The translations under genes were made by a program, and so were the position numbers. Shown in pieces: positions 10,299 to 35,257 of a DNA stretch of 40,216 bases; position 1 is the first letter of the stretch; each line of letters starts with the position of its first letter. The notes beneath the pieces were generated by a model. That model saw only the letters and a list, made by a program, of their open reading frames with translations, ran no database searches and was not told the DNA's origin. The stretch is from positions 1 to 40,216 of the IMG/VR virus record IMGVR_UViG_3300013125_000017. The stretch is one strand, 5' to 3'. The DNA is from a virus.

Positions 10299-10509
10299 GG
10301 GATCTCTTCCTTGGTATATTAAGAAATATGGTAATATAGAAGGAACGAAAAAATACCAAGAAAAAACAAATAAATTGAAGGGCTGTCACTCCCTTCCTTG
10401 GTATATTGAGAAATATGAAGGTAATAAAAGATATCAAGAGTATTGTTCCTATAAAGAGATTATAATAATAATCCGGTTGAAACAATTCAGAAATGTTTGG
10501 AGTTCATAA
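10213..10509 (+). pseudogene. Decayed homing endonuclease repeats between the two halves of the first helicase intein
   Basis: Three copies of a repeat with consensus KYG-x-IEG-x-K-(R/K)-Y occur here in two frames: QRKYGEIEGEKRYNEW in the frame of the helicase N-piece, and WYIKKYGNIEGTKKYQE and WYIEKYEGNKRYQEY in the frame of 10267-10509. In a further frame, NPVETIQKCLEFING runs to a TAA that overlaps the ATG of the next gene (ATGGATAA). The same repeat stands near the N-terminus of the intact endonuclease at 11669-12895. No nuclease domain remains, and at least two frame changes separate the pieces, so this is a remnant of an endonuclease that once occupied this intein. Confidence 0.7.
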
Positions 10510-11637
10510 ATGGATAATATTTGTAAAGAGTATAGAAAATGTGAAGATATTTCGATATATACAAATATAGGATGGGTTCCTGTTGATTATGTATTAAAAA
10601 CAATCCCATTTGAAAAATATATTGTACTATTTGAATCTGGCAGAGAAATAGAATGTGCTGATAGACATGCTTTCATAAATGAAGAATATAAAACAATCAT
10701 AACCAAGGATTTAAAAATAGGGGATAGAATACTTTCTGATGATGGTGTTGATATTGTGTTTGATATATTCAATACTGGTGAATATGAAGAAATGTATGAT
10801 GTCAGTCTAAGAGACCATCATCTTTATTATGCAAACGGTTTATTGTCACACAATTCAGCATTTTTGGCTAATATGGCGGCAAGACAAGTTCTAAATGGAT
10901 GGAATGTTGTTCTTGCTTCATTAGAAATGTCAGAAGATGCCTTTGCACAAAGATTTGATGCTATCTTTTCAATGTATGATATAAACAAATTATATAAGGA
11001 TTCCCAAGTAAGGAAAAAACTTCCTTCGGCATTAGATAAGGTAAAGGGTACATCTGGTAGAGGAAATCTTTGGATAAAGCAGTATCCTACAGGTAAGGCA
11101 ACGGTTGAGGATTTTAGAAAATACATAAGAGAATTAACAATGAGAGGACTGAACCCTCAAATATTTATTTGTGATTATATGAATCTGATGAAGCCAGCAT
11201 ATAAAAGCAAAGGAGATATGTATAATGATGTTAAAACAATTTCAGAAGAATTAAGAGCAATGTCATTTGAATTTAAAATGCCTATAATATCTGTTAGTCA
11301 GTTGAATAGGGAGGGTATGAATATACCCTTTGAACAAGTTGATTTTACATATATATCAGAATGTTTATCTTTAGATACCTCTGTGTTGAAATGGGATGGT
11401 AAAATATACATTGCTGAAAAAATATCAAATCTAAAGAAAGATGATATAATTATGGGTAGCAAGGATAATGTTTGTGTAAAAAGACTCTTCAATAAAAAAA
11501 TTAAAAAAATGTATAAAATAAAAACGAAAAGTGGTAAGGAAATAATTTGTTCAGCAGATCATAAATTCCCAACATCAGAAGGTATAAAAAATATAAATAG
11601 TGGTCTTTGTGTTGGTGAAAAATTGAAAACTTTATAA
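10510..11637 (+). CDS. 41: Helicase gp41, middle piece, flanked by a C-intein and a second N-intein
   Basis: 375 residues in three parts. Residues 1-115 are a long C-intein: block B-like ESGREIECADRHAF, then blocks F/G HHLYYANGLLSHN ending in Asn115. Residues 116-284 are helicase extein starting with the Ser that completes Walker A (SAFLANMAARQ), then Walker B-type IFICDYMNLM and the sensor loop SVSQLNREG, ending YISE. Residues 285-375 are a second, canonical N-intein (CLSLDTSVLKWDG; block B SGKEIICSADHKFPT), very like the known gp41-1 split intein. This one polypeptide must take part in two trans-splicing reactions. It has no obvious ribosome site and starts by overlapping the stop of the decayed endonuclease frame. 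Confidence 0.88.
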   Translation: MDNICKEYRKCEDISIYTNIGWVPVDYVLKTIPFEKYIVLFESGREIECADRHAFINEEYKTIITKDLKIGDRILSDDGVDIVFDIFNTGEYEEMYDVSLRDHHLYYANGLLSHNSAFLANMAARQVLNGWNVVLASLEMSEDAFAQRFDAIFSMYDINKLYKDSQVRKKLPSALDKVKGTSGRGNLWIKQYPTGKATVEDFRKYIRELTMRGLNPQIFICDYMNLMKPAYKSKGDMYNDVKTISEELRAMSFEFKMPIISVSQLNREGMNIPFEQVDFTYISECLSLDTSVLKWDGKIYIAEKISNLKKDDIIMGSKDNVCVKRLFNKKIKKMYKIKTKSGKEIICSADHKFPTSEGIKNINSGLCVGEKLKTL

Positions 11638-11640
11638 ATA
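11633..11640 (+). promoter_or_regulatory. T4-type late promoter motif before the intein endonuclease
   Basis: TATAAATA overlaps the stop of the middle helicase piece, 29 bp upstream of the endonuclease ATG at 11669; a second copy is at 11592-11599. T4 homing endonucleases such as I-TevI are known to be delayed by late promoters, which fits. The motif is common by chance at this base composition. Confidence 0.3.
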
Positions 11641-11668
11641 GATATAAATCAGTTGTGGGGGTAAGACG

Positions 11669-12895
11669 ATGGTAAAGTTTTCAATGCTAAATAAAGAAGA
11701 TAAGTTGAATAGATTATATAATAGCCCTGTATGGATAAAAAAAATTGGTAATTTTTATATTGATAAAGAAAGGGAAACTATTATAATATCTATTATTTCC
11801 AAATGGGAGAAACTATATATTACAGATATAGTAAGTTTAGCGAGGCTTATAAGATATGCTGAAGTTGATGAAATAAAAAATAACTATAATGTGTTATCAA
11901 CAACAGATGGTATTGAAAAAAGAAAACGAAAATTAAATATGTTCATTCTTCAATATGGGAAAAAAGAAGGTAGCGCACGATATGGCCAATTTACCAATAA
12001 ACTTAATATATTGAATAGATATATTAAAAAATATGGTGAAATAGAAGGATATAAAAAATATGGTCTTTATATAAAAAAACTTTCTGTTTCACAGCAAAAA
12101 AAGGTTATTCGTGAAGGAAAAATAATTCAAAAAGAGAGATCCCTTTTATGCAAGGAGTATTGGATGAAAAGGGGATATTCTAAAGACGAATCAATTTTAT
12201 TAGCAAAAAACCATTCTAATATGTTAGTAAAAAATTCTCATAGTGTTGTTCATGTTGTACCAAGAATACATAGACTCAATACATTAGATTATTGGTTATA
12301 TAATGGATATGATTATGAAACAGCATGTGTAATGAAAAAAATACAAACTGATAAATCTATACAATCAAAAGAGGAATATAAAAAGAAATATGGTGAAAAA
12401 TGGGAAGAAAAATGGGATGTAATGCAAGAAAAGAGAAGGATAAAAACACTCAAAACTATATCAAAAAATAATGGGTTTAAATGTAATGCATCTAAACAAT
12501 CTTTATTGTATTTTTTACCTTTAAAGTGTTGGATAATGAAAAAATATAATATATCAGAAGATGATATATATATAGGGATTGATGGTTCAAAAGAATTTTT
12601 TCTTGCCAATTCAACACAATATTATTTTAGATATGATTTTACAATAAGGACAAAAAAGATTATAATAGATTATCATGGAGAGAGATTTCATCCGTCAAAA
12701 CATATAATACCTGATAAAGAATGGTATAAGTGGAAATCACCATATGGAATATCTTCTACTATACAGTATAATATAGATATTAAAAGAAAAATAGTAGCAG
12801 AAGAATTAGGGTTTAAATATTATGTAATATGGTCATATAAAGAATATGATGATGAAATAAAAAATGTAATGAAATTTATTGAGGATAATATATGA
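11669..12895 (+). CDS. Homing endonuclease of the fractured-gene (Vsr-like) family, in the second helicase intein
   Basis: 408 residues between the N-half and C-half of the second helicase intein. The N-terminal part has KYG-x-x-EG-type repeats (QYGKKEGSARYGQF, KKYGEIEGYKKYGLY) thought to act in DNA recognition. The middle has YWMKRGYSKDESILLA and DYWLYNGYDYETA repeats. The C-terminal domain is Vsr-like: YDFTIRTKKIIIDYHGERFHP (about 320-342), then a long helix with DIKRKIVAEELG and a final YYVIWSYKEY strand. This matches the free-standing endonucleases described between split intein halves in phage fractured genes. It starts after GGGGG and its stop overlaps the next ATG (ATGA), which couples it to the C-intein gene. 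Confidence 0.85.
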   Translation: MVKFSMLNKEDKLNRLYNSPVWIKKIGNFYIDKERETIIISIISKWEKLYITDIVSLARLIRYAEVDEIKNNYNVLSTTDGIEKRKRKLNMFILQYGKKEGSARYGQFTNKLNILNRYIKKYGEIEGYKKYGLYIKKLSVSQQKKVIREGKIIQKERSLLCKEYWMKRGYSKDESILLAKNHSNMLVKNSHSVVHVVPRIHRLNTLDYWLYNGYDYETACVMKKIQTDKSIQSKEEYKKKYGEKWEEKWDVMQEKRRIKTLKTISKNNGFKCNASKQSLLYFLPLKCWIMKKYNISEDDIYIGIDGSKEFFLANSTQYYFRYDFTIRTKKIIIDYHGERFHPSKHIIPDKEWYKWKSPYGISSTIQYNIDIKRKIVAEELGFKYYVIWSYKEYDDEIKNVMKFIEDNI

Positions 12896-13302
12896 TAGAG
12901 TATAATGATGAAATAGAATCTATTGAATATGTTGGTGAATTAGAATGTATGGATATTGAGGTATCAGGAGATCATTTATTCTATGCTAATGATATACTTA
13001 CAAAAAATAGTATTGGAACAATGGCGAGTGCTGATTTTGCTCTTATCTTTGGTAGTGATGAATCTCAGGCAGTATATGAATCTGAACTATTTTATAAAAT
13101 TGTAAAGAATAGATTAGGTGGTAGGGTAGGTGAAATTGATAAATTTTATACAGATATGAGAAATTTAAAGATGTATGATAGTATGGAATTAGATAAATGG
13201 CTTGATGATTCTGGAATATCAGGTGATACCAGAAAAAAGGCAGAAGTTATAGATAGAGTTGAAAATAATAGAGGTAGAAGATCAAGAAGGGAAAGAAGAT
13301 AA
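12892..13302 (+). CDS. 41: Helicase gp41, C-terminal piece preceded by a canonical C-intein
   Basis: Residues 1-39 are a C-intein (ECMDIEVSGDHLFYANDIL, ending TKN39), the same length class and nearly the same sequence as the gp41-1 C-intein. The usual penultimate His is replaced by Lys (TKN instead of THN). From Ser40 the helicase resumes: SIGTMASADFALIFGSDE through VKNRLGGRVGEIDKF, then a tail rich in Arg. Joining YISE to SIGTMASADF gives the continuous gp41 motif. The three exteins sum to 197+169+97 = 463 residues, close to T4 gp41 (475). Confidence 0.88.
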   Translation: MIEYNDEIESIEYVGELECMDIEVSGDHLFYANDILTKNSIGTMASADFALIFGSDESQAVYESELFYKIVKNRLGGRVGEIDKFYTDMRNLKMYDSMELDKWLDDSGISGDTRKKAEVIDRVENNRGRRSRRERR

Positions 13303-15009: not shown

Positions 15010-17790
15010 ATGTTTCGTAATGTCTATTATGATACAAGAAAAAGTAAAATTTGTTTGTGGGATCAAGTGCGAGGTAAAAATGTATATACCAGCATTAATT
15101 GGGTTCCATATGTATATGAATTAGCTGACGATGGTGATATAAAAACTATCGAAGGAGAAACAGCAAAAAAGATAACATTTAATACATACAATGAGTATTA
15201 TGTATATGCTAAGGAACATCCAAATTGCAAAGAAAATTTATTACGGCCAGAAATTCAGTTTCTGGCCGAATATTATCATAAAATCCCTGATGATGAAGTA
15301 GAAAATCCAAATTTAAAGGTATATTCTTTGGATATAGAAGTGTGTGCAGATAAAGCATTTCCAAAAGCTACCGAAGCCAAAGATCCTGTATCACTTATAT
15401 CTGTATATGATATGATGAATAAAACAACCATATCATTCGGTATTAAACCATATGACGGTAAGTATTTGAATGAACCTTGGTTTACATTTGTTCATTGTAA
15501 AGATGAAGAAATGTTACTAAGACAGTTCTTTGGATGGATGCATAAAAATCCATGTGATGTTATAACGGGTTGGAATTGTATTCCATTGACGAATTATATA
15601 TTCAAGTCAAATGAAATTGCACAATTATCAAGTATTATTCCGGGTGATATGCTATCCTTATCAAATGAGGTTGATATAGTATATCCGAGGTCTAAAAAGT
15701 TGGTTAGAAGGATAAAACTTGGGAATGGCAGTTCAATTGAAACATCAGGAGATCATATCATACCAATAAGATATATTAATAAGAATTCCTATACAAAACT
15801 TATAAAAAACGATAAATCTAATAATCACATATATGATGTGGATATGAAAGTTGATGATATACCATTTGAAGAACAATCCTGTTTTGTTCATGTTCCGTTT
15901 GATTTGAATGTAAATAAGTGTAATGATATTGATAATAACTTATTATATTTAGCAGGATTAATATACACCGATGGATCATTGAGAAATAAATCGTGTATAT
16001 ATGATGAATATAGAATATATGAATCAAATACAGAATTATTGAATAAAATACCATATATTACAACAAAAATATGTGGAAATAGAGATCATGGATTTTATCG
16101 AAATGTAAAACACTCTATTGTAAAACCAGTTCATAATCTCATATATGATGAACAGGGTAATAAGGCCTTAAATATATCAATGCTTAGTCGGTTATCTAAA
16201 AAACAATTTTATTATTTTCTTTCTGGCCTTCTCGATGGTGATGGGATTGCTAGTTCTACAGGAATGTCATATTGTGATTACACTAAAGACGGAATTGATA
16301 AACTATATAACTTATGCTTATGGAATGGTATATTTATAACAAGAAGTAAAAATATTATGCATTTTATAGAGTATGACTTCAATTCATTACATTTAAATCA
16401 TCCATATAGATGGAAGTCAATGAAAAAAAGTAGTTTAAATAGGAATTCATCTCAAAAAGCTTCTAAAATCAGATTCAAAAAAATTGATAATGAATATTAT
16501 ATAAGAATAACTGATATTGAAGAAACGGATAAAGAAGTAGAAATGGGTGATATAAAAACAAAGACAGGATATTTTATATCAAATGGTGTAAATGTTCACA
16601 ATTGTATGACATTTGACTTACAGTATTTGATAAACAGGATAGAACGAATTACAGGTGATGAAGGATCATATGCTCTTTTATCTCCTATAAAAAATGTAAG
16701 AACATGGAAACCAAAAGATGGTGATGATGTAAATATAGATATAGCTGGTGTTACTATACTTGATTATCTTGATATATATAAATGGTATAGTCCTAAAAAA
16801 CTTGAACGATATACTCTTGATTATGTATCTATCTTTGAACTCAAGAAAGGAAAGGTAGATTATTCTGTATATAATGATTTACGTCAACTATATCATGATG
16901 ATTGGAATTTATATGTAGAATACAATGTAATTGATTCATTACGAGTAGGACAATTAGAAGAAAAACTTGGATATATAAAATTAGTTCAAACATTATCGCT
17001 ACTTACAAAAGTACCCATGAAGTATTATCATATACAAACAGCTCTGATTGAAGGTATGTTTATTACATATTTTAGAAGAAATGGTATGTGTGCACCCACT
17101 TTTTATGGTGGCACACAAGAAAGTTATGAAGCTGCTTATGTCAAATCTCCAATTCTTGGTATGCATAATTGGGTAATAGATTTAGATATTACATCTTCGT
17201 ATCCAACAGCTATCATTACATTAAATATGTCAAATGAAACATATTATGGTAGAATACTTGGTATGACAGAGGATCAAGTAATGAGTTATTCAAGAAATAA
17301 AAATTTTCCAGAATTTCAAATGATGAAAAATATAGGAAAAATGGAATTTTCAAATAAAAGACTTGATTTATTTAATAATGCTTTAAAAAAGAAATTATTG
17401 TGTATAGCTCCATGTGGATCTGTTTTTATTACTAATCCATTGGGTGTTATTGCTACCGTGGAAAAAAATACTTTTCATAAAAGAATTGAAGTAAAGAAAA
17501 AAATGATAAAACTAAAAAAATCTTTACCTGATTTAAGAGGTAAAATGCTTGAGGATACAAAAGAAAAAATTGCCAGATATAATAGTTTACAGAATGCTTT
17601 AAAAATTATTCTAAATGCTACATATGGCGTTCTTGCTACACCATACTTTAGATATTTCAATATAAACATAGCTGAAGCCATCGTTTCTTGTGGAAGGCAG
17701 ACAATAAAAGCAGGTGAATCAATAGTAAATAATTTATTAAACAATCCTAATGATGAATTAAAGGAAATATTGAAAAATATCAAAGAATAG
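15010..17790 (+). CDS. 43: Family B DNA polymerase gp43, N-terminal and palm part, with an in-frame LAGLIDADG intein
   Basis: 926 residues as translated. Exonuclease motif I is YSLDIEV (Asp108, Glu110). Exonuclease II is split by an intein: VITGWN189 / C532 MTFDLQYL. Polymerase motif A is DLDITSSYPTA (about 724) and motif B is KIILNATYGVLATPYFRYFN (about 865). The gene then stops at TAG 17788-17790, after the helix ending LKEILKNIKE, before motif C (DTDS), which is found in the next gene. Exteins of 189+395 residues plus about 280 after the break approach the length of T4 gp43 (898). The promoter is at 14946-14974. The polymerase must be spliced, and the break before motif C must be bridged or complemented in trans. 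Confidence 0.88.
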   Translation: MFRNVYYDTRKSKICLWDQVRGKNVYTSINWVPYVYELADDGDIKTIEGETAKKITFNTYNEYYVYAKEHPNCKENLLRPEIQFLAEYYHKIPDDEVENPNLKVYSLDIEVCADKAFPKATEAKDPVSLISVYDMMNKTTISFGIKPYDGKYLNEPWFTFVHCKDEEMLLRQFFGWMHKNPCDVITGWNCIPLTNYIFKSNEIAQLSSIIPGDMLSLSNEVDIVYPRSKKLVRRIKLGNGSSIETSGDHIIPIRYINKNSYTKLIKNDKSNNHIYDVDMKVDDIPFEEQSCFVHVPFDLNVNKCNDIDNNLLYLAGLIYTDGSLRNKSCIYDEYRIYESNTELLNKIPYITTKICGNRDHGFYRNVKHSIVKPVHNLIYDEQGNKALNISMLSRLSKKQFYYFLSGLLDGDGIASSTGMSYCDYTKDGIDKLYNLCLWNGIFITRSKNIMHFIEYDFNSLHLNHPYRWKSMKKSSLNRNSSQKASKIRFKKIDNEYYIRITDIEETDKEVEMGDIKTKTGYFISNGVNVHNCMTFDLQYLINRIERITGDEGSYALLSPIKNVRTWKPKDGDDVNIDIAGVTILDYLDIYKWYSPKKLERYTLDYVSIFELKKGKVDYSVYNDLRQLYHDDWNLYVEYNVIDSLRVGQLEEKLGYIKLVQTLSLLTKVPMKYYHIQTALIEGMFITYFRRNGMCAPTFYGGTQESYEAAYVKSPILGMHNWVIDLDITSSYPTAIITLNMSNETYYGRILGMTEDQVMSYSRNKNFPEFQMMKNIGKMEFSNKRLDLFNNALKKKLLCIAPCGSVFITNPLGVIATVEKNTFHKRIEVKKKMIKLKKSLPDLRGKMLEDTKEKIARYNSLQNALKIILNATYGVLATPYFRYFNINIAEAIVSCGRQTIKAGESIVNNLLNNPNDELKEILKNIKE
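15577..16602 (+). other. Full-length intein with LAGLIDADG homing endonuclease in the exonuclease II motif
   Basis: Residues 190-531 of the polymerase, 342 residues. Block A is CIPLTNYIFKSNE; block B is NGSSIETSGDHIIP (T-x-x-H); the LAGLIDADG motifs are LAGLIYTDG (314-322) and LSGLLDGDG (404-412), both with the catalytic acid; block F/G is GYFISNGVNVHN, followed by Cys532. All splicing residues (Cys1, block B His, His-Asn, +1 Cys) are present, so both splicing and nuclease are probably active. It lies between N189 and C532 of VITGWN-CMTFD, so the exonuclease cannot function unless it is spliced. Confidence 0.9.
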
Positions 17791-17848: not shown

Positions 17849-17877
17849 AGTAGAGAACATTGATTATGTTCTCTACT
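17849..17877 (+). other. Perfect 12-bp hairpin in the polymerase break
   Basis: AGTAGAGAACAT (17849-17860), loop TGATT, ATGTTCTCTACT (17866-17877): 12 uninterrupted base pairs. It lies 3 nt before the in-frame GAA TTT GAT ACA GAT that encodes the start of motif C, and after an SD-like AAAAGGAG (17834-17841). There is no T-run, so it is not a terminator. It contains the candidate ATG (17866) of the second polymerase gene, which folding would hide. Confidence 0.85.
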
Positions 17878-18729
17878 CCTGAATTTGATACAGATAGTTT
17901 GTTCATAAATGTTGGTTTGTTTATAGAAAAAAATATTGGTAAAGAAAAATGGCTTCAAATTACTGATGATAAGAAAATAAGTATTATAAAACAAGTAGCA
18001 AAGGTGATTGAAGAGAATGTAAATGATAAATCATATCGTGAAATACAAAGAAAAACATATAATTCCTCTGAAACAGATTTTCGTATAAAATTTAAACAGG
18101 AGATTATTGCTAAATCAGTTCTTTTTGTAAAAAAGAAAAAATATTCTTGTTGGATAATAGAAGAGGAAGGGGCTTCAGTTGATTATATTAAGACAACTGG
18201 ATTAGAAATTGTCAGATCAGATACACCTGAAATTGTAAGGCCCTTTTTAAAAGATATAATTACAATGATATTAAAAGGATCTTCTGATTACGAAATATCT
18301 GATAAAGTACAAAAGGTTAAGAAAGATTTATTAGCATCTATACCAGAAGAAATATCAACTAATATAGGGGTACATGAATTATCAAAGTATATAGGAGTAA
18401 ATAATTTATGTAAAAAGGGAACCCCAATGCATGTAAAAAGTGTTGCTAATTATCGTTCGTTATTGAATATATTGAAGTTGGAAGATAAATATGAAGATAT
18501 AGTTGATGGAACAAAGGTAAAGGTTGTATATTTAAAAAAGAATAAATTTGGATTTGAAAGTATGGCCTTTCTTAGATGGCCTACTGAATTTGACAAGGTT
18601 ATTCAAATTGATTATAATAAACAGGTAGAGAAAACTTTTACAAATAAAATAAGTATCTTATTAGAGCCAATGAATAAATTAAATATTATGAATGGAAAGA
18701 TTAAAGAAGTTATAGGTTTATTTTTTTAA
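17866..18729 (+). CDS. 43: DNA polymerase gp43, C-terminal part (motif C and thumb)
   Basis: 287 residues from the ATG at 17866 (TTG 17860 is possible). It begins with motif C, FDTDSLFINVG, holding the second catalytic Asp pair, then KSVLFVKKKKYSCWI and KTTGLEIVRSDTP, then KGTPMHVKSVANYRSLL of the thumb. It ends IKEVIGLFF, which resembles the C-terminal sliding-clamp-binding peptide of gp43. It is in the same frame as 15010-17790 but separated by three in-frame stops. A third-frame stretch at 17826-17880 reads MITKGDKKVENIDYVLYS, whose end is the expected beta-strand before DTDS. Neither start codon has a well-placed ribosome site. Possibilities are a split polymerase, a recoded or bypassed gap, or decay. 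Confidence 0.75.
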   Translation: MFSTPEFDTDSLFINVGLFIEKNIGKEKWLQITDDKKISIIKQVAKVIEENVNDKSYREIQRKTYNSSETDFRIKFKQEIIAKSVLFVKKKKYSCWIIEEEGASVDYIKTTGLEIVRSDTPEIVRPFLKDIITMILKGSSDYEISDKVQKVKKDLLASIPEEISTNIGVHELSKYIGVNNLCKKGTPMHVKSVANYRSLLNILKLEDKYEDIVDGTKVKVVYLKKNKFGFESMAFLRWPTEFDKVIQIDYNKQVEKTFTNKISILLEPMNKLNIMNGKIKEVIGLFF

Positions 18730-20357: not shown

Positions 20358-20534
20358 ATGGAGAAGAAGCCTATGGTCGTAAGAGTTACTAAAACAGAGT
20401 TTGAATTAGATGATGGAAGAATATTTCCTCACCCAGTAGAACTTGATGACGTTCCTACTATTGAGGAATTTCAGAAAATTTATGACAAAAGCCGTAAACT
20501 TGTTTCTGATATGCTGAAGGATGATAATGACTAA
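20358..20534 (+). CDS. Small phage protein, probably truncated by the IS607-type insertion
   Basis: 58 residues: VVRVTKTEFELDDGRIFPHP, then VPTIEEFQKIYDKSRKLVSD, a compact beta-then-helix protein. Its last codons (20520-20534) overlap the transposon tnpA start, so the C-terminus may come from the element. If the element is removed between GG at 20519-20520 and GG at 22697-22698, the frame continues LKERYKRNMW and stops. No family is recognised with confidence. Ribosome site GAAAGGTTAAAT. Confidence 0.6.
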   Translation: MEKKPMVVRVTKTEFELDDGRIFPHPVELDDVPTIEEFQKIYDKSRKLVSDMLKDDND

Positions 20535-21162
20535 TAATCTTATAGATATATCTGAAGCATCTCAACTTCTTGGAGTGGATAAGTCTACTTTGAGGTATTG
20601 GGATAAAACTAATAAACTGAAACCACAGAAAACCGCTGGTGGTCATAGAAGATATTTATTATCTGATATTAAGAAACTTCAAGGTATATCTGAAGACTGT
20701 ATAGATGATGGTATTAATGAAAATAATGTAGCTGTTTATTGTAGAGTTTCCTCACATGAGCAGAAACAAAAAGGTGACTTAGAACGTCAAAAAGGCAGAC
20801 TTCTTGAATATTGTATTAAGAAAAAGTATCAAGTAGAGTATATCTTCGAAGAGGTAGGTTCTGGTATGTCTGATACAAGAACTAAACTACATAGGTTGTG
20901 TGATGTAGCTGAAAAGAGAAAGATATGTAAAATTATAGTAGAACATAAAGATAGATTAACAAGATTTAACTATTTGATATATGAAAGATATTTTAAAAGT
21001 TTAGGCGTTGAAGTTATTATTGTAGAAGAGACTCTACCTAAAACTTATGAAGCTGAGTTAGTTGAAGATATTATGTCTTTAGTAGCCTCGTCTTCATCTA
21101 AAGTTTATGGAAAAAGAAGTGCGGAAAATAGAAGAAAGAAAAAAGAGATGGTTACATGTTAG
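20527..21162 (+). CDS. tnpA: IS607 transposase TnpA (serine recombinase)
   Basis: 211 residues. The N-terminal MerR-like helix-turn-helix (DISEASQLLGVDKSTLRYWD; TAGGHRRY) is followed by a serine recombinase catalytic domain: VAVYCRVSSHEQ (nucleophilic Ser near 75), KIIVEHKDRLTRF and the C-terminal SSSSKVYGKRSAENRR. Length matches IS607 TnpA. The ATG at 20527 is favoured over 20521 because AAGGA lies 5 nt upstream. The gene overlaps the next gene by 7 bp. Confidence 0.92.
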   Translation: MTNNLIDISEASQLLGVDKSTLRYWDKTNKLKPQKTAGGHRRYLLSDIKKLQGISEDCIDDGINENNVAVYCRVSSHEQKQKGDLERQKGRLLEYCIKKKYQVEYIFEEVGSGMSDTRTKLHRLCDVAEKRKICKIIVEHKDRLTRFNYLIYERYFKSLGVEVIIVEETLPKTYEAELVEDIMSLVASSSSKVYGKRSAENRRKKKEMVTC

Positions 21163-21575
21163 ATTTTGAAAACTCTCATCATTTAGAACCAGAAATAACT
21201 TGGCAAGACTGCGCTACATTTATATATGATGCTGTTTTGGATGGAAAATTAAATAGAGAAGATTTCATTAAGCTTTTTATATTATCTGGTCAAGAAATGT
21301 CTGATCCTCGACATGTAAGAATATTTGCTAAAGCATTAGGAGCTTTTTTCAAAAGAGATTATACAGATTTAAAGTCTGAAGAAAAACCCGCAGTGCTTGT
21401 AATAGTAAACAATAAAAAATATTTAGTCTCGCATAACAATGAAGAAATAACTATAAATGAAGCAAATGATTTAAAAGACTTATCAGACTATTCTTTTATT
21501 ATTACACATGAAACTGAAGCAGATGGTAAAATAGCAGCGTGGGAAAGAAAAGAAAAATACATAGAGAGAATATAG
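21156..21575 (+). CDS. Unknown protein encoded between tnpA and tnpB
   Basis: 139 residues, overlapping the end of tnpA and ending 1 bp before tnpB, so it is translated as part of the transposon operon. Acidic N-terminus, a helical segment (DFIKLFILSGQEMSDPRHVR, then IFAKALGAFFKRDY), and a beta-rich second half (PAVLVIVNNKKYLVSHNNEE). IS607 elements usually carry only tnpA and tnpB, so this is an accessory gene of unknown role. It might regulate transposition or the TnpB nuclease. Confidence 0.7.
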   Translation: MLDFENSHHLEPEITWQDCATFIYDAVLDGKLNREDFIKLFILSGQEMSDPRHVRIFAKALGAFFKRDYTDLKSEEKPAVLVIVNNKKYLVSHNNEEITINEANDLKDLSDYSFIITHETEADGKIAAWERKEKYIERI

Positions 21576-21576
21576 G

Positions 21577-22689
21577 ATGAAACTAATAAGATCAACTAAA
21601 TGTAGTCTGAAGTTTGCTACAAAACATAAAACCGCTGAATTACAATCTATCCTTGCAGAGTATGGTAAAGTTTGTAATATCTTTATAGATCACTTTTGGA
21701 AGAACGAAACTCCTTCTAAAGCTGAACTCCTTAAAGATATAGTTGATCTTCCTAAAGAGACTTGGCTATCTGCAAGGTTGAGAAAAGTTGCTGCCCGTGA
21801 ATCTATTGACATGATCAAGGCAACTAAAGAGAGATGGAAGTCTAAACCAGATAAGATGAAGATGCCTATACATAAAGGCAAACGAATGTATGTGTCTTGC
21901 ACCATAGCTGATCTCAATGAGTCAGAAGAGGCTACTGAATTTGATGCTTGGTTACATATAGCTTCGGTAGGAGATAAGCATATTTTAGATTTGCCCATTA
22001 AATTCCATAAGCATTTCAATAAGATAGCTTCTATTGGTAAAAGATTAAATAGTTATATTATTACTGATAAGTATGTTCAATTTAGTTTTGAAGTCGAAAC
22101 CTTACCTAAAAAAGAAGGTAACAAGGTTTTAGGTATAGATACTGGTATTAACGCTCTTGCGTCTCTTTCTAACAAGATACAGCTTGGTACAGATATTAAA
22201 TCTTGTATAGAGAGGATAAAGAGGTGTAAGCAAGGATCAAAAGGTCAGAAACAGGCTCGTAGAGCTTTAAAACAGAGAATAGATGAAGTTGCTCAAGAGA
22301 TTATTAAACTCGATCCTGATATGATTGTAGTAGAAAAGTTGAAGGATTTAGGTAAGAATACAAAAGTCAAACGTCTATTGACTAAAAATATTAGACGCTC
22401 TATCGGAATCTGGAATTGGAAGTATTGGTTAAAAAGGTTAGAACAAGCTTGTGAACTTAACCGTGTTAAGTTCCGCACTGTAGCTTCTTTTTATACCTCT
22501 ACAACCTGTTCAGAGTGTGGTTATTCTGATAGGATGAATCGTAATGGTGAGCTATTTAAGTGTCTAAAATGTAACCACGAGATGAATGCGGATATAAATG
22601 CCGCCTTGAATATACTCAAACGATTCATTACAGGAGTCTACGGTTCCTGTTGCAAACCTGAAGAAGTAATGAACTTTAATTTTTCATAA
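21577..22689 (+). CDS. tnpB: TnpB, RNA-guided nuclease of the IS200/IS605/IS607 group
   Basis: 370 residues, the usual compact TnpB length. RuvC-like catalytic residues are present: Asp188 in LGIDTGINAL, Glu near 253 in IVVEKLKDLG, and Asp near 339 in MNADINAALNI. The zinc finger CSECG...CLKC lies at about 311-330. The N-terminal KLIRSTKCSLKFATKH is the usual OB-fold start. TnpB is guided by an omega-RNA encoded at the 3' end of its gene and cuts DNA to preserve the element. All catalytic and zinc residues are intact, so activity is likely. Confidence 0.92.
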   Translation: MKLIRSTKCSLKFATKHKTAELQSILAEYGKVCNIFIDHFWKNETPSKAELLKDIVDLPKETWLSARLRKVAARESIDMIKATKERWKSKPDKMKMPIHKGKRMYVSCTIADLNESEEATEFDAWLHIASVGDKHILDLPIKFHKHFNKIASIGKRLNSYIITDKYVQFSFEVETLPKKEGNKVLGIDTGINALASLSNKIQLGTDIKSCIERIKRCKQGSKGQKQARRALKQRIDEVAQEIIKLDPDMIVVEKLKDLGKNTKVKRLLTKNIRRSIGIWNWKYWLKRLEQACELNRVKFRTVASFYTSTTCSECGYSDRMNRNGELFKCLKCNHEMNADINAALNILKRFITGVYGSCCKPEEVMNFNFS

Positions 22690-28876: not shown

Positions 28877-30277
28877 TTCTCTAACAAGATCAGTAGCTAC
28901 AGCCTTCATAATATTAATAAATCCTTTGCCTATAAAACCCCATCCCGATAGATTTGTTATATTCTTATGCCCACCTGATTGAGCTTGAATAATATCCCAA
29001 GCTGATACTGATATAGTTCTTAATATTTTATGATCTTTCTGTGAAAGTTGACTAAATGGTGTATTCATTATTGTTTTCAACATATCATAATATGTTTCAG
29101 TATCTTGTAAACCTTTAGTATATTTTTTAAATAATGCCATAAAATCATTCATGGTAAATCCCATAGAATTATCGGTAACACCTCGTTCAAATGACATTTT
29201 TATATAATCAGCTGATACCATTATTCGTTTAAGGTCTCCCTTATATTTTGATATTACTTTTTGGGCTAATTCACCTAAATGATATGGATTATCACCTTTT
29301 ATGAACGGGTTTACAGTAGCTTGTAATAAACCAAGAGGCCACATCATTACAAGATATTGAGCTGTAGGATTAACCTTAAATACTGTATATCTATCATATA
29401 CAACTGTCTTACTTACAAGTGAACTACTTCCATATTGGACAACACAATTCCCAAACATCATGGATTCACCTGTTTTCAAATTAATTATATCACTTAAATT
29501 ACCTTGTTTTTTTCTTATTTCTTGATTTTGAATATAATTTTGCATTCCAGAATCTACCTCTTCTGGTGTTTTATATCCATTCTTTTTAGCAAGATATTTA
29601 ATTATAATATACATATTAGTTAAAGAAGGTTTTGCCATTAAAACTAATTGGTCAAGAAATCCCTTTTTATTTTTATATGCTAATAACAACTTATTAACAA
29701 CTAATCCCATAAAAATCCTATTTTTACTAACATCTATTTTAGAATTGACTTCAAATGCCGCTCTCATAACATCATCAGGTGTTATATCATTTTTAGCAAA
29801 ATCAGCACTATCAACCATTGATATGAGTTTTAAATCTTCTTGTGGAAAGGAATCAGATTTTGGTATAATAGTTGATAAATATGCAGCATTAGATGGTGTA
29901 TGTACGAATGATGTTGATGTTCTGTCAGAAACACCTACTTGACCTTCATGATGATCTGTATGAATATGCATTATAGCATCTTTACCATGAGCAAAATCAA
30001 CAAGAACATGAAGTGTTTTATCTTGTGGTTTAGGAACAGAATATTCCATCCCTCCATAATTTATCATATGAGTATCAATAATTTTTATACCATATCCTTC
30101 AAGATATGTCTTGATGGCTATAGCTGATGTTACACCATCAAGGTCTTGATGAAAATATATTTCAGCATTTTTGTGAGTTTTTGCAAGCTCACGAATATTG
30201 CGAATTCCAGATTCATTTAAGACTTGTATCAACCCATCTTCATATAAACAGAAATCTATCTTTTCTACTATATTCAT
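28847..30277 (-). CDS. DHH-family phosphoesterase
   Basis: 476 residues. DHH motifs are present in order: HQDLDGVTSAIAI (Asp45-Gly48), VLVDFAHGKD (Asp94), HTDHHEG (108-110) and VDSADF (about 165). This superfamily contains RecJ, oligoribonuclease NrnA and pAp phosphatases; metal-dependent hydrolysis of a phosphodiester or phosphoanhydride is expected. The C-terminal half (WPLGLLQATVNPF; GERGVTDNSMGF-like region) may be the DHHA1 substrate domain, including a GGHKNITNLSGWGF segment that corresponds to the GGH motif of DHHA1. Start and stop overlap neighbours. A role in degrading short RNA or DNA oligonucleotides is inferred. Confidence 0.8.
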   Translation of the reverse strand: MNIVEKIDFCLYEDGLIQVLNESGIRNIRELAKTHKNAEIYFHQDLDGVTSAIAIKTYLEGYGIKIIDTHMINYGGMEYSVPKPQDKTLHVLVDFAHGKDAIMHIHTDHHEGQVGVSDRTSTSFVHTPSNAAYLSTIIPKSDSFPQEDLKLISMVDSADFAKNDITPDDVMRAAFEVNSKIDVSKNRIFMGLVVNKLLLAYKNKKGFLDQLVLMAKPSLTNMYIIIKYLAKKNGYKTPEEVDSGMQNYIQNQEIRKKQGNLSDIINLKTGESMMFGNCVVQYGSSSLVSKTVVYDRYTVFKVNPTAQYLVMMWPLGLLQATVNPFIKGDNPYHLGELAQKVISKYKGDLKRIMVSADYIKMSFERGVTDNSMGFTMNDFMALFKKYTKGLQDTETYYDMLKTIMNTPFSQLSQKDHKILRTISVSAWDIIQAQSGGHKNITNLSGWGFIGKGFINIMKAVATDLVRELSNKELEMD

Positions 30278-31023
30278 TATCTATCTCCTTCTATTTTCTT
30301 ATTTAAATATTTTCTTAATTTCTTATTTTTTAATTTCCTTCTTTCTATCTTTGTACCAAATTTTGGATAGAACTTTTGTATATTCGTAGATGTTGTTGCT
30401 CCATTAGGATCTGTATATCCCTCTCCCTGTTGTGAACTAGGGGTGCCTCCTGTGTCATCTTCATTTACACTTCCTATATCTTGTTTTATCATTATTATAG
30501 AATTATAAAAATTATTATATATATCAAATTCATCTTGAGATGCATTCATATCTATTAAAACTTTTTTAATTTTTTTAAGAGATGTTAATATATATTCGAC
30601 ATCATTTAACCATTCTTTATAATTTGTTATTTCAATCCCAAATATATTTCTCATTACTAATTTTAACATAGAGGAGAGGCCAATAAATGAATTATCTATT
30701 TCCATAATAAATGAGACAATCCTTTGTCTATTAACACTTTTTATATCTGATTTTAATTTTAATTTTAAATCATCTTTTTCCTTACCATTTTTCGTAATAA
30801 TATATTTACAGATAAGACCAATAATATTAGATACTTCTTTTCCTGCTCTTTCAAGATAATCAAAAATCGTATCAGATCTCTTTATCTGAATGCCTATTTT
30901 ATTACCTACTTTTTTAATATTATCAAATACAGAATCAGGAACACCAATATTTTCATTTAATATGATAAGTGATATATCTTCAAATATATTATCCTTTTTA
31001 AGATATTCATTAAATATATTCAT
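30277..31023 (-). CDS. Putative internal virion protein, mostly helical
   Basis: 248 residues. The N-terminus MNIFNEYLKKDNIFED resembles, less exactly, the leader seen in other genes here. The body is helical without cysteines or catalytic motifs; a disordered Gly/Ser/Thr stretch (DTGGTPSSQQGEGYTDPNGA) precedes a basic C-terminal helix (ERRKLKNKKLRKYLNKK). It lies between the membrane protein and the DHH gene with single-base overlaps, so expression is tightly coupled. Function is not recognised. Confidence 0.5.
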   Translation of the reverse strand: MNIFNEYLKKDNIFEDISLIILNENIGVPDSVFDNIKKVGNKIGIQIKRSDTIFDYLERAGKEVSNIIGLICKYIITKNGKEKDDLKLKLKSDIKSVNRQRIVSFIMEIDNSFIGLSSMLKLVMRNIFGIEITNYKEWLNDVEYILTSLKKIKKVLIDMNASQDEFDIYNNFYNSIIMIKQDIGSVNEDDTGGTPSSQQGEGYTDPNGATTSTNIQKFYPKFGTKIERRKLKNKKLRKYLNKKIEGDR

Positions 31024-31454
31024 TATTTTCCATTCCTTGAAAGAAATAATTCTAATTGTTGTTTCATATTTTCTGTATGCTCCTTTAGGTTTTCTCTCAT
31101 TTCTAATTTTATACCATTTATAATAGATGTTTCTAATTTAAATTGTGTTAAACTAGAAATTATAACACCCAATGTTATAATTATACTGAAAACAGCAATA
31201 AGGATTTTTATTTTAGTAAGTATACTTCTAATTCCATTAACAACATCATTACCTTCAAATTTTCTAATTTCTTCTTTTATTATTCCTATTTCATCAACAA
31301 CAGTAGGTATTGTATCAGAAACCTTAGTTAATGATATATTTATAGAACGTAACATATCAGTATTTGATGTATTTGTTTCTTGCAAATTATCAATTAATCT
31401 TTCTACTATGCCAGGAAGAATATCAGTTGAATTATATTTTTTATCATCTGTCAT
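31023..31454 (-). CDS. Single-span membrane protein with coiled-coil flanks
   Basis: 143 residues. One clear transmembrane helix lies at about 82-101 (KIKILIAVFSIIITLGVIIS). Long polar helices before and after have heptad-like spacing (IGIIKEEIRKFEG; LKEHTENMKQQLELF). There is no signal peptide. It overlaps the 3' end of the PAS gene by 11 bp, so the two are translated together and may act together at the membrane. A tail- or lysis-related role cannot be excluded. Confidence 0.6.
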   Translation of the reverse strand: MTDDKKYNSTDILPGIVERLIDNLQETNTSNTDMLRSINISLTKVSDTIPTVVDEIGIIKEEIRKFEGNDVVNGIRSILTKIKILIAVFSIIITLGVIISSLTQFKLETSIINGIKLEMRENLKEHTENMKQQLELFLSRNGK

Positions 31455-32652
31455 TAGAATATTTCCATTTTCTATTAAATGATAATATTGTATTATTCAA
31501 ATTATTTATAGCTTTTCTAGTTTCTTGTAATGTTTCACCTTCTAATTTTTCCAATTTTCTTATAATTTTATTTTGTTGATGTACTGATTCTGTAATATCT
31601 TTAACAATACCACTACACCCAACAACAGATTTATTATCATCAAGTAAAGGAGATTTTATAATTTCTACAATAATTTCATTTCCGTTTATATTATATTTTT
31701 TTATAAATCTTTCTACTTTATCTGTTATCGTTGTGCATTCCGTAGAATTTAATATATCTTCATCAAGATGAAAATCTCTAAGAGCTTTATTAGCGAATAT
31801 TATATTTTTACATGAATCATTCACCCAAACCATATCATCCATAGAATCAAGAAATGATTCTAAAACTGAATATAATTCTTTAAATTTTTTACGAGAATTA
31901 TCAATATCTTCTTTTGCTTTAATCATTTCGGTTATATCAATAGAAACACCACCTAACAAATCACCGTTTATAGGAAATTTTGTTACCATATATGTATTTC
32001 CATTGATTTTATTTTCAGATATTGAAGATGTTTTCTTTTCAAAAACGATTTTATCATTTTCTGCCATATCATCAGCAATGTCTTTGGGCCATATATCATG
32101 TACAGTTTTACCTATTACTTCTAATGAAGGTTTTTTAAGAATTTTTTCATAATATTTTGATATTTTTATAAATTTTGATTGTTCGTCTTTTATATACATT
32201 GATACCGGACAATATTCAAAAAACTGATTTATAGCCTTTTCACTTTTTCTATAACGAGTTTTATCAATACTTGTATAAATTGTTGCATTTTTTCCTTTAT
32301 ACCATATAACATCTGGATGTATTTCACAATAAAGAGTTTTACCATCCTTTTTTATTATTTCAACTTCTTCATACATGTCTGGAATAGATTCATATTTACC
32401 TTCTAATCTTAATAAGGCTCTTGATGAAAATGTTTCTCTATCCTTATGTGTAAATAGATTACCAAATTTCAATGTTTCTAAATCTTTGTTAGTATATCCA
32501 GTTTTTTGATAAAATGTATCATTAGCATAAAGAATTTCTTCCCCTCTATTAATAATAATTATAACAGTTATTGTGTCTAGAACTGTGGCCAATATATTAG
32601 ATTCACGCCTATCATTTTCCACAGGAATATTAATACGTCGTCTATTATTCAT
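31444..32652 (-). CDS. Triple PAS-domain sensor protein without an output domain
   Basis: 402 residues. Three PAS domains lie in a row: about 16-130 (EEILYANDTFYQKTGYTNKD; EEVEIIKKDGKTLYCEIH), about 132-240 (FFEYCPVSMYIKDEQSKFIK; GGVSIDITEMIKAKED) and about 252-355 (SMDDMVWVNDSCKNIIFANK; CSGIVKDITESVHQQNKIIR). The PAC-type endings (DIT-E) are conserved. The C-terminus is a coiled coil with no histidine kinase, GGDEF, EAL or HTH. PAS domains bind small ligands, haem or flavin or mediate dimerisation. A phage-borne PAS array is unusual. It is the second gene of the operon that starts with the HAD phosphatase. Confidence 0.85.
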   Translation of the reverse strand: MNNRRRINIPVENDRRESNILATVLDTITVIIIINRGEEILYANDTFYQKTGYTNKDLETLKFGNLFTHKDRETFSSRALLRLEGKYESIPDMYEEVEIIKKDGKTLYCEIHPDVIWYKGKNATIYTSIDKTRYRKSEKAINQFFEYCPVSMYIKDEQSKFIKISKYYEKILKKPSLEVIGKTVHDIWPKDIADDMAENDKIVFEKKTSSISENKINGNTYMVTKFPINGDLLGGVSIDITEMIKAKEDIDNSRKKFKELYSVLESFLDSMDDMVWVNDSCKNIIFANKALRDFHLDEDILNSTECTTITDKVERFIKKYNINGNEIIVEIIKSPLLDDNKSVVGCSGIVKDITESVHQQNKIIRKLEKLEGETLQETRKAINNLNNTILSFNRKWKYSNDR

Positions 32653-32656
32653 TACA

Positions 32657-33334
32657 TTAACTCCTTATTATTCTTTTTAATGACCCATCCTTTAAGGCTT
32701 GTAAAGCATAAAATTCTATAGCTGGTTCATTTTCAGGTACATTATATTTATTTCTTATTTTATTTTCAATCTCTTTAGGAATTGATATCTCTAATTCTAA
32801 AAATGCTTGACAATTAGCCTCACTATCATCTATAAGGCGAACTCTTCTGTATAGACCACTTGATAGATATTTTAAAATTGTTAGTTTCTTTTTTGTAGGT
32901 AAATCTGCTTGTGCTTTACCCGGATTACCAACCCTCTCTACATATATATTATCAATAGGAATACCAAAGTCTCTCATTGCTTGTAGAAAAACTTCTTTAT
33001 TGTCTAAATCTGCTCTACCAGTTAATATAACAATCTTTGATCCTCTTTTATTAATATTTTGGAACATTCTTTGGATTCTATTAATCATTTTGGTTACTGG
33101 TTTAGATGTATTTTTAAAATATTCAGCATTTCCATATTCACTAAAATCAAATGTTTCACCTTCTTGTTTATCATAATGAAGAAAGGCAAAATTACCTAAT
33201 CTGTTTGTAATTTTTCCGTTTTTATATACATTTATTTTAGCATTTGTGTAAAGTATGGTATCATCTAAATCCATAAATGTTATGCCAGGGCCATAAATAC
33301 TTGAATTTTCTGAAATAAAAGATTTTAATCTCAT
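32657..33334 (-). CDS. HAD-superfamily phosphatase with a head-leader-like N-terminus (copy 1)
   Basis: 225 residues. MRLKSFISENSS at the start matches the leader of three plus-strand genes nearby. HAD motif I is FMDLDDTIL (nucleophile and acid Asp), motif II is VILTGRADL, and the acidic motif IV is VRLIDDSEA. A Lys in KAQADLPTKKK may supply motif III. It is a divergently transcribed paralogue of 33425-34093. The substrate is unknown; phage HAD enzymes often act on nucleotides or 5'/3' phosphates. Ribosome site GAGGAAAACTT before the ATG. Confidence 0.8.
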   Translation of the reverse strand: MRLKSFISENSSIYGPGITFMDLDDTILYTNAKINVYKNGKITNRLGNFAFLHYDKQEGETFDFSEYGNAEYFKNTSKPVTKMINRIQRMFQNINKRGSKIVILTGRADLDNKEVFLQAMRDFGIPIDNIYVERVGNPGKAQADLPTKKKLTILKYLSSGLYRRVRLIDDSEANCQAFLELEISIPKEIENKIRNKYNVPENEPAIEFYALQALKDGSLKRIIRS

Positions 33335-33376
33335 AAGTTTTCCTCACATAGTAGTTATATTATTTTATATTATTTA

Positions 33377-33393
33377 TTATAAATAATATTTAT
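33377..33393. promoter_or_regulatory. Divergent T4-type late promoter motifs between the HAD paralogues
   Basis: TATAAATA on the plus strand at 33377-33384 and on the minus strand at 33386-33393, 1 bp apart in a 90-bp divergent gap. They point outward to the two HAD genes, 40 and 51 bp from the start codons. This layout is more convincing than isolated copies of the octamer. Confidence 0.55.
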
Positions 33394-33424
33394 ATCAGTA
33401 TATATCTATTTAGGAGAAATTTAT

Positions 33425-34093
33425 ATGAGATTAAAGAATTATATAACAGAAAAGGAAACAAAGGGTTTAGGGATAACATTTGTAGACCTTGATGAGACAT
33501 TATTTAATACATTTGCTAAAATAAACGTCATAAAGAATGATAAAATAATTAAATCACTTACTAATGCAGAATATAATAGTTATAAAAAAGAAGATGGAGA
33601 AACATTTGATTATTCTGAATTTAGAAATGCAAAATTATTTTATGATACATCTAAACCGGTAACCAAAATGATAAAAAGAGTGGTTAGAATTATAAACCAT
33701 TCTGAACAAAGAGGATCAAAAGTTATAATTCTTACGGCTAGAACTAATTTAGATAATAAATCTTTATTCTTAGAAAAATTTAGAAAAGAAGGATTTCCTA
33801 TAGATAAGGTATATGTTGAAAGAGCTGGTAATCGATCTGGTATATCAATACCATATATAAAAAAAGAAATTATAGTTAAATACTTAAAAGATGGTGTTTA
33901 TCGTCGTGTTAGATTATTTGATGATTATTTAACAACATGTAAAGAATTTTTAACAATAAAACAAGATATTCCGACAGAAATTTTAAATAAGGTTCGTAAA
34001 ACATATAATTTATATGATATTGCTGATGAAGATCTTATATCATTTGAATCATATAATGTTCAACCTGATGGGTCTGTCAAGGAGATAAAATAA
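33425..34093 (+). CDS. HAD-superfamily phosphatase with a head-leader-like N-terminus (copy 2)
   Basis: 222 residues, paralogous to 32657-33334 along its whole length. Leader MRLKNYITEKET; motif I FVDLDETLF; motif II VIILTARTNL; motif IV VRLFDDYLT. The region DTSKPVTKMIKRVVRII corresponds to NTSKPVTKMINRIQRMF in copy 1. Ribosome site AGGAGAAATTTAT. Its stop overlaps the next ATG (TAATG). Keeping two divergent copies, both with intact motifs, suggests different substrates. Confidence 0.8.
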   Translation: MRLKNYITEKETKGLGITFVDLDETLFNTFAKINVIKNDKIIKSLTNAEYNSYKKEDGETFDYSEFRNAKLFYDTSKPVTKMIKRVVRIINHSEQRGSKVIILTARTNLDNKSLFLEKFRKEGFPIDKVYVERAGNRSGISIPYIKKEIIVKYLKDGVYRRVRLFDDYLTTCKEFLTIKQDIPTEILNKVRKTYNLYDIADEDLISFESYNVQPDGSVKEIK

Positions 34094-34767
34094 TGAGATT
34101 ACAAAAATATATGGTTAATGAGACAATAGTACCATCATGGATTTTAAAAATTTTTAATATAGTAAAATCAGAATTATATAAAATGTCATTTAGTGAATTT
34201 GTAAAAAAATGTGAGAATGATTATAATAAAATTTTATTATCTGTATTGAAAAAAATAGATACAACGAATAATAAAAATCAAGAACCCATAACGTATAAAA
34301 TATCAGATATTTTAGGTAAGGTATTTTATATTGTAGGTACAACAGATAAAGAAAAAATAGAAGATAAAAAATTTATCAATTTATTATTAAAAACTACTAA
34401 AGATAAAAATATAAAAGAAAGACTTTTCAATTTAGATCAAAAATTAGATATAAATGATTCTTTACGTTATTGTAATAGGAAAGAAATATTTGAAAACCCA
34501 ATAAATGAAGATGCTGCCCATTTATGGAAACTTATAAAAACAGAAGCATTTCCTACTATGTCATTTTATCCGGCTCTTCAGGTTTGGCTTGAACTTGATA
34601 AGGTATTGAAAGGCACAGAATATAGTGGTAAAGTAATTGGTTTTTATGCTTCATTTTGGCTTATATTAATATCTGGTAAACATATAGCTCAATGGATGAA
34701 ATGGAAAAAAGAAAATCCTGAGCAATATAAAAAAGAAAGAGAAGAAGGAAATGGTGGTATCTTATAA
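34093..34767 (+). CDS. Putative internal head protein with C-terminal hydrophobic helix
   Basis: 224 residues. Leader MRLQKYMVNETIVPSW, then helical segments, then the segment AFPTMSFYPALQVWLELDKV followed by a hydrophobic helix GFYASFWLILISGKHIAQWM and a charged tail. It is the intact paralogue of the frame-disrupted gene 34767-35257. It starts at the overlap of the HAD stop and ends overlapping the next start. The leader suggests capsid targeting and cleavage after V-N-E; the enzymatic role, if any, is unknown. Confidence 0.6.
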   Translation: MRLQKYMVNETIVPSWILKIFNIVKSELYKMSFSEFVKKCENDYNKILLSVLKKIDTTNNKNQEPITYKISDILGKVFYIVGTTDKEKIEDKKFINLLLKTTKDKNIKERLFNLDQKLDINDSLRYCNRKEIFENPINEDAAHLWKLIKTEAFPTMSFYPALQVWLELDKVLKGTEYSGKVIGFYASFWLILISGKHIAQWMKWKKENPEQYKKEREEGNGGIL

Positions 34768-35257
34768 TGAGACTTAAACAATATATAGCAAATGAAATGA
34801 TAAATGAGATTGCAATATCATCTTGGATTTCTAAAGTAAAAACAGAGGTTTCTAAACTATCAATAAAAGAAATAGAAAGAAAATGTAGAGAAGCATTCTA
34901 TCAATTAGCTGATGCATTATTGAAAAGATTGGATGATACAAAAAATGATAGTATAACTGTTAAAATAGCTGATGAAATATCTAAACTTTTTATATGGCAG
35001 GCACAACAAAGAAAGAAAGAATGGATACTGATGAACTGATAAAACATATAATAGAATTGAAAAATCGTAAGATAAATGAATCTGTGTCAGCAACAGTAAA
35101 GAAAGATGAAATTGTATCGGTCGTTGTATCTTATCCAGTATATTCACTTGCTATATATATTGATATTATTTCTGGTAGATATATAAAAAATATGAATTTT
35201 ATGTCTATAATATATGCTGCAATATTCTTAGTATATTTGTCTGCTAAACATATATAG
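34767..35257 (+). CDS. Frame-disrupted paralogue of the preceding gene
   Basis: The first frame reads MRLKQYIANEMINE to SKLFIWQ and stops at 35037-35039. The continuation is in the -1 frame, from YMAGTTKKERMDTDELIKHI to LSAKHI (stop 35255-35257). Slipping one base back on the T5 run at 34987-34991 gives SKLF-YMAGTT, which aligns with GKVFYIVGTT in the intact paralogue at 34093-34767. A further in-frame run after the stop (VIKKYKEEQEKKGRR...) to 35331 resembles the paralogue's charged tail, so the 3' end has also gained a stop. One lost T, a -1 frameshift or assembly error could explain the break. Likely a decaying duplicate. Confidence 0.65.

Follow-up and report, generated by a model that had tools for sequence, protein, structure and literature searches.

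INTRODUCTION

Phages are known to acquire quorum-sensing receptors and, on rare occasions, complete kinases. Atu_ph07 and Phosso, which come up again below, are rhizobial jumbo phages. PAS domains go unmentioned in a survey of 224 jumbo phages, in which the only receiver-type domain described is a distinct one, cREC (Iyer et al. 2021, PMC7824862). The paper on Atu_ph07 does not discuss the PAS gene of that phage and gives its mechanism of lysis as unknown (PMC6102473). On PAS domains linked to holins or lysis cassettes, the open-access literature yielded nothing relevant; modules of the kind described here may have been noticed earlier elsewhere.

Here we describe a PAS sensor gene that overlaps the gene for a membrane coiled-coil protein (TM-CC) in a 40,216-base virus record, a 40-kb fragment from an uncultivated phage. 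The window, as used below, is this whole stretch of DNA.

RESULTS

Operon layout of the window

The window encodes a portal protein (phrog_213) and phage DNA polymerase families and is, judged by its sequence, a piece of a T4-related phage genome. Its DHH protein matches DHH proteins of metagenomic phages of 630–740 kb, so the window probably comes from a very large phage. Two divergent operons meet near the genes considered here, one of them led by a HAD-superfamily phosphatase gene. The features of the HAD-led operon are as follows.

33387..33394, minus strand: TATAAATA, a perfect match to the T4-type late promoter box, ahead of the HAD-sensor-TM operon
32657..33334, minus strand: HAD-superfamily phosphatase, first gene of the operon and the anchor by which the slot is located in relatives; N-terminus MRLKSFISE, resembling T4 capsid targeting
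31444..32652, minus strand: three-PAS sensor of 402 aa without an output domain (Pfam PAS_9 three times, PAS_4, PAS_8, PAS), with a C-terminal helical tail
32266..32562, minus strand: PAS domain 1 (PAS_9; genome search)
31927..32208, minus strand: PAS domain 2 (PAS_9/PAS_4; Pfam and genome search)
31588..31848, minus strand: PAS domain 3; its counterparts by alignment are the final PAS in L108 and the only PAS in L106 and in L102
31444..31586, minus strand: C-terminal tail after PAS domain 3, predicted helical, without the motif W-[KRN]-x-E
31444..31454, minus strand: 11-bp overlap of the sensor and TM-CC genes
31023..31454, minus strand: TM-CC, 143 aa (hydropathy, two long helices, family HMM)
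30277..31023, minus strand: w30277-type gene directly downstream of TM-CC, conserved in L018, L021, L024/L102, L025, L100, and L108

The 11-bp overlap suggests that the sensor and TM-CC genes may be translationally coupled, and Shine-Dalgarno-like sequences (AAGGAG and GGAA) occur at both. Tail-fiber, portal, prohead protease (PF03420, in a relative), and other head-type genes surround the place held by the pair (the slot), which in the window clade adjoins tail-fiber, glycan, or head-type genes. No recognizable endolysin gene adjoins the slot in this clade.

Elsewhere in the window, DNA polymerase is encoded in two genes (15010–17790 and 17860–18729), a split kept in relatives; residues about 190–530 of the first are missing in relatives and look like an intein insertion. 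Parts of a DnaB-type helicase (9489–13302) are split by inserts that resemble inteins or homing endonucleases and are contiguous in relatives. An IS607-like element (20521–22689) carries a MerR-HTH serine recombinase and a transposase-family (TnpB-like) gene, and a RimK-type ATP-grasp protein fused to Zn_protease (PF05618; 26294–27709) is 82% identical in L018.

The PAS sensor

Three stretches of the 402-aa protein match Pfam PAS_9 (E 9e-25, 87 bits, cut-off 27), PAS_4 matches at 50.7 bits (cut-off 23.1), and PAS_8 and PAS likewise exceed their cut-offs. A separate genome search placed the three PAS_9 copies, all above the cut-off and stop-free. Pfam identified no kinase, GGDEF, EAL, or HTH domain in this protein, and neither HisKA nor HATPase_c, by which a two-component sensor kinase would be recognized. 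A sequence-only reading of this DNA had proposed three PAS domains, no output domain, and an 11-bp overlap with a single-span coiled-coil protein; open reading frames, Pfam, and hydropathy confirmed this description.

In the predicted structure, PAS domain 3 has a pLDDT of about 70–80 and the helices that follow it are confident, and PAS domains 1 and 2, modeled from a shallow alignment, are mostly below 50. Matches of the model in the PDB were mostly PAS proteins (E to 6e-8), of the FixL, DosP, NifL, BvgS, and LOV type, with heme, FAD, and FMN proteins among them. Identities were 10–19%, so no ligand or cofactor can be named, and the heme or flavin binding raised in the sequence-only reading gains no support here. 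PAS sequences diverge widely among relatives, and in direct protein searches neither the window PAS protein nor its TM partner had a relative among viral contigs, phages, or bacterial genomes. Plasmid matches were to generic PAS domains at 20–30% identity, and the MT837829 match was judged bacterial; both were set aside, as were readings of the protein as a chemoreceptor, diguanylate cyclase, or anti-kinase, which had no domain match behind them.

The same slot in related phages

Relatives were instead found through neighboring genes: a DHH alignment led to syntenic contigs, and the slot itself was reached with w30277 and HAD alignments. Counts refer to the 15 distinct phages, window included, that could be read beyond the same HAD gene. 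The HAD gene is followed by a sensor and, immediately behind that, TM-CC in 12 of them (the window and 11 loci, in the same order), with sensor-to-TM-CC spacing from a 26-bp overlap to a 10-bp gap. The slots are occupied as follows.

Three PAS domains: window and L108
One PAS domain: L115
One PAS domain and a separate REC: L102 and L106
REC with tail: L100
REC-PAS: L111, L113, L114, and L116
REC-PAS-PAS: L107 and L117
TM-CC without a sensor: L025
Other small ORFs, including a 76-aa TM protein: L021
Empty, with neither sensor nor TM-CC: L018

Slot sensors thus swap among PAS domains, REC domains, and mixtures of both, an interchange that the sequence-only reading overlooked, and an output domain was found in none of them. 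The PAS of L102 matches nothing in Pfam at 0.01; it is assigned by alignment, its counterpart being the final PAS domain in the window, in L106, and in L108. REC domains in the 15 related contigs are confined to the slot. No HATPase_c was found in these contigs, which are fragments, and a kinase elsewhere in the genomes is possible.

The PAS domain E-values and the recurrence of the pair in relatives exclude a chance pairing, and the proposed coupling of the sensor to a membrane protein gains from the same adjacency in 11 related loci and from fused or bicistronic forms in other phages. L025, with TM-CC alone, and L018, with neither gene, show that the pair is not obligate. The earlier statement on the rarity of sensor arrays in phages is true of the phage collection as a whole but not of this clade, most of whose members have a filled slot.

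Bacterial matches to the REC-PAS alignment were generic receiver domains and were discarded, L190 excepted. This locus (JAHWGK010000096.1) lies on a contig binned as a Thermoplasmata archaeon and carries the phage HAD and REC-PAS pair; the contig is probably a misbinned phage.

The membrane coiled-coil family

Hydropathy places a single hydrophobic span at residues about 84–102 of the window TM-CC, which is modeled as two long helices (12–65 and 70–141). In leave-one-out tests of a TM-CC HMM, left-out members scored 20–97 bits and shuffles 15 or less; on these profiles, the TM-CC proteins of the slot phages are one family. The window protein matches the family HMM weakly, at 17.5 bits, a score reached by 0 of 1,000 shuffles (best 9.7), and only the HMM relates it to the TM protein of L025, since blastp between the two returned nothing. 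Members share a motif near the N-terminus (L-F/I-D). In most of them, positive residues lie on the coil side of the span, before it. By the positive-inside rule, the positively charged flank of a span faces the cytosol, so the coil and the sensor would share that compartment.

Some members have weak profile matches to XhlA, hemolysin, holin, or spanin. XhlA (PF10779) is matched weakly by 4 of 13 members (best E 0.008), and the window member matches no family at E 0.1. Coiled-coil composition alone may explain the XhlA and holin matches. Searched against the PDB, the TM-CC profile returned coiled-coil noise only.

The sensors of relatives also share a tail, which scored above most shuffles in most, though not all, leave-one-out tests. 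Its motif W-[KRN]-x-E occurs in 10 of 11 relatives, and L106 has WKEK. The window tail lacks the motif and scores 1.8 bits, with 231 of 1,000 shuffles as high.

Late promoter boxes and head-targeted neighbors

An exact TATAAATA box lies on the operon strand in all five phages checked, usually with a second box serving the opposite operon. Shuffle probabilities are 0.04–0.26 per phage, with a product of about 1e-5, to be read with the five phages being related. These boxes and the structural or head-type flanking genes support late expression of the predicted pair, in line with the late operon first proposed as probable.

N-termini that resemble capsid-targeting sequences (MRLKSFISE, MRLKNYITE, MRLQKYMVNE, and MRLKQYIANE) occur in window genes at 32657–33334, 33425–34093, 34093–34767, and 34767–35039, as well as in many genes of L270–L285. 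Together with PF03420, they suggest that numerous proteins are packaged in the head and may be ejected. HAD phosphatase paralogs number two in the window (32657–34093) and three in L018 (6171–8284) and are related to genes adjoining structural-type genes in other contigs. At L285 (contig G001, 3259–7082, minus strand), there is a run of related genes of about 220–300 aa, several with capsid-targeting-like N-termini, which by eye look like ADP-ribosyltransferases.

Similar modules in other phages

The cultured Agrobacterium phage Atu_ph07 has a two-gene unit like that of the window, in which a TM coiled-coil gene overlaps a kinase-less multi-PAS gene (AUZ94860 and AUZ94861). The TM protein has 81 aa, the multi-PAS protein 536 aa, and the overlap is 4 bp; annotation of the multi-PAS gene suggests a kinase, but no kinase domain is present. 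The same kinase-less unit occurs in the cultured Sinorhizobium phage Phosso (XYS97610 and XYS97609), and the two TM proteins are 37% identical. Annotations in these phages read hypothetical, "multi-sensor signal transduction histidine," or "PAS domain S-box protein." Unlike in the window, the TM gene comes first, the span is N-terminal, and no HAD or w30277-type neighbors were seen.

Chryseobacterium phages MA9V-1/-2 and Cellulophaga phage phi14:2 also combine an anchor, a coiled coil, and PAS without an output domain. They differ from the window in that TM, coil, and a single PAS_4 are fused and the gene sits inside a lysis-type gene cluster: in phi14:2 it overlaps a GH19 endolysin gene by 4 bp, and in MA9V-1/-2 a GH108 is nearby. 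In phi18:3-like contigs, a PAS-like gene, assigned by similarity alone and with no Pfam match, overlaps a 5-TM gene, with a GH108 endolysin immediately after it. Contig G001, which carries L018, has two tandem pairs of PAS and one-span genes away from the slot; 4–7 kb from these pairs, and sharing their strand, are endolysin-like and spanin-like genes. With a background of 7% of gene calls for small one-span genes, chance is an unlikely explanation for adjacency that recurs across unrelated lineages.

DISCUSSION

We consider it reasonably probable that the pair is a late, membrane-tethered, kinase-less signaling module with the membrane protein as its output. The phage probably senses something in the infected cell and relays it to the membrane through the pair. 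The PAS protein would be a cytosolic sensor whose C-terminal helix probably mediates docking on the coiled coil that TM-CC exposes to the cytosol, so that the sensor is tethered under the inner membrane. The trigger may be a ligand or redox change in the PAS domains or, in REC-bearing relatives, phosphorylation of the receiver by a host kinase. The triggered sensor would then shift how the membrane protein packs or oligomerizes, and late in infection a membrane event would be permitted or delayed.

The timing of lysis is the leading guess for that event, given the late promoter boxes, the endolysin neighbors in other phages, and the weak XhlA, holin, and spanin matches. Control of lysis as the output is nonetheless speculative, a possibility to which we lean less than to the module itself: coiled-coil proteins match lysis-type profiles easily, and the slot in the window is not beside lysis genes. 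The module is also less secure in the window than in its relatives, as the sensor tail is unlike their shared tail and the TM-CC homology is weak (17.5 bits).

A different role would follow if the pair were a decoy or adaptor of host two-component signaling, with the PAS domains pairing with host PAS kinases, the REC domains draining phosphate, and TM-CC only positioning them. The sequence-only reading had likewise suggested that the pair might dominate host PAS-containing kinases or cyclic-di-GMP enzymes by heterodimerizing with them. Three observations suit a decoy. With no kinase ATPase domain of phage origin found in the 15 contigs, phosphate for the REC members would have to come from the host; their sequences show the phospho-acceptor aspartate retained in several REC copies; and every slot member lacks an output domain. 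We nevertheless find it unlikely, since the promoter boxes are of the late type and do not point to early expression, the REC domains of L111, L113, and L114 lack part of the acidic pair (VEGS for VEDD) and the conserved lysine, and the TM-CC partners form a single conserved family and carry their own motifs, features beyond those that a bare anchor needs. Downstream genes raise the quite unlikely alternative of sensor-gated superinfection exclusion or envelope remodeling in the late phase of infection, with no bearing on lysis. The pair precedes genes of glycan-related appearance, as judged by eye, in L113 and L116 and two lipoproteins in L107, but the downstream genes vary by phage, and the constant neighbors are the HAD gene and, in several, the w30277-type gene.

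That the pair is itself virion-associated or ejected, traveling with the head-targeted proteins around it, would fit the capsid-targeting-like N-termini of its neighbors (37 of 388 gene calls vs 5 of 388 shuffled) and the T4-type prohead protease encoded in a relative. Both the sensor and TM-CC, however, lack an M(K/R)xxxYIxE-like N-terminus, and in phi14:2 the neighbors are recorded as structural by MS/MS, whereas the annotation of the PAS gene there comes from similarity alone; we hold this role to be very unlikely. Least credible is a recently acquired PAS passenger whose overlap with the membrane gene is incidental. The membrane gene stands alone in L025 and the window PAS tail is divergent, as a passenger would predict, yet L108 repeats the three-PAS layout with the same neighbors, and sensor and TM-CC genes are adjacent at 12 loci, with further cases in unrelated phages.

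A conserved late locus in which PAS and REC are swapped before one membrane family, as the signaling module implies, would amount to signaling without a kinase, cyclase, or DNA-binding output, and it would let phages couple a late membrane event to host physiology. A bolder and doubtful extension is that several phage lineages independently built kinase-less PAS/REC switches that gate a holin-like coiled-coil membrane protein, the moment of lysis following the sensed state of the host. If true, lysis timing would be tied to redox, ligand, or host kinase activity, beyond a fixed clock. Phage-borne signaling parts are already known; the newer element would be sensor-gated lysis, a view that we put forward with more reserve than conviction. 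For this question, the Atu_ph07 pair is a testable lysis candidate in a cultured phage.

Among known systems, the 735-kb phage LR756501 resembles the slot phages in encoding both PAS and REC. Its hybrid PAS histidine kinase is unlike the window sensor in that a predicted kinase core and REC are in one protein; no membrane partner was seen beside this kinase, and no TM-CC-type neighbor was found for the standalone REC of that phage. XhlA-type phage hemolysins or holin accessories (PF10779) share with TM-CC a short coiled coil and one span. TM-CC differs in its extra conserved N-terminal motif and C-terminal coil, and the window member is unmatched. The cREC of jumbo phages is, like the slot REC, a receiver-type domain. 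It is divergent and tied to NAD/RNA-repair enzymes, whereas the slot REC is mostly ordinary PF00072 above the cut-off and tied to TM-CC (PMC7824862).
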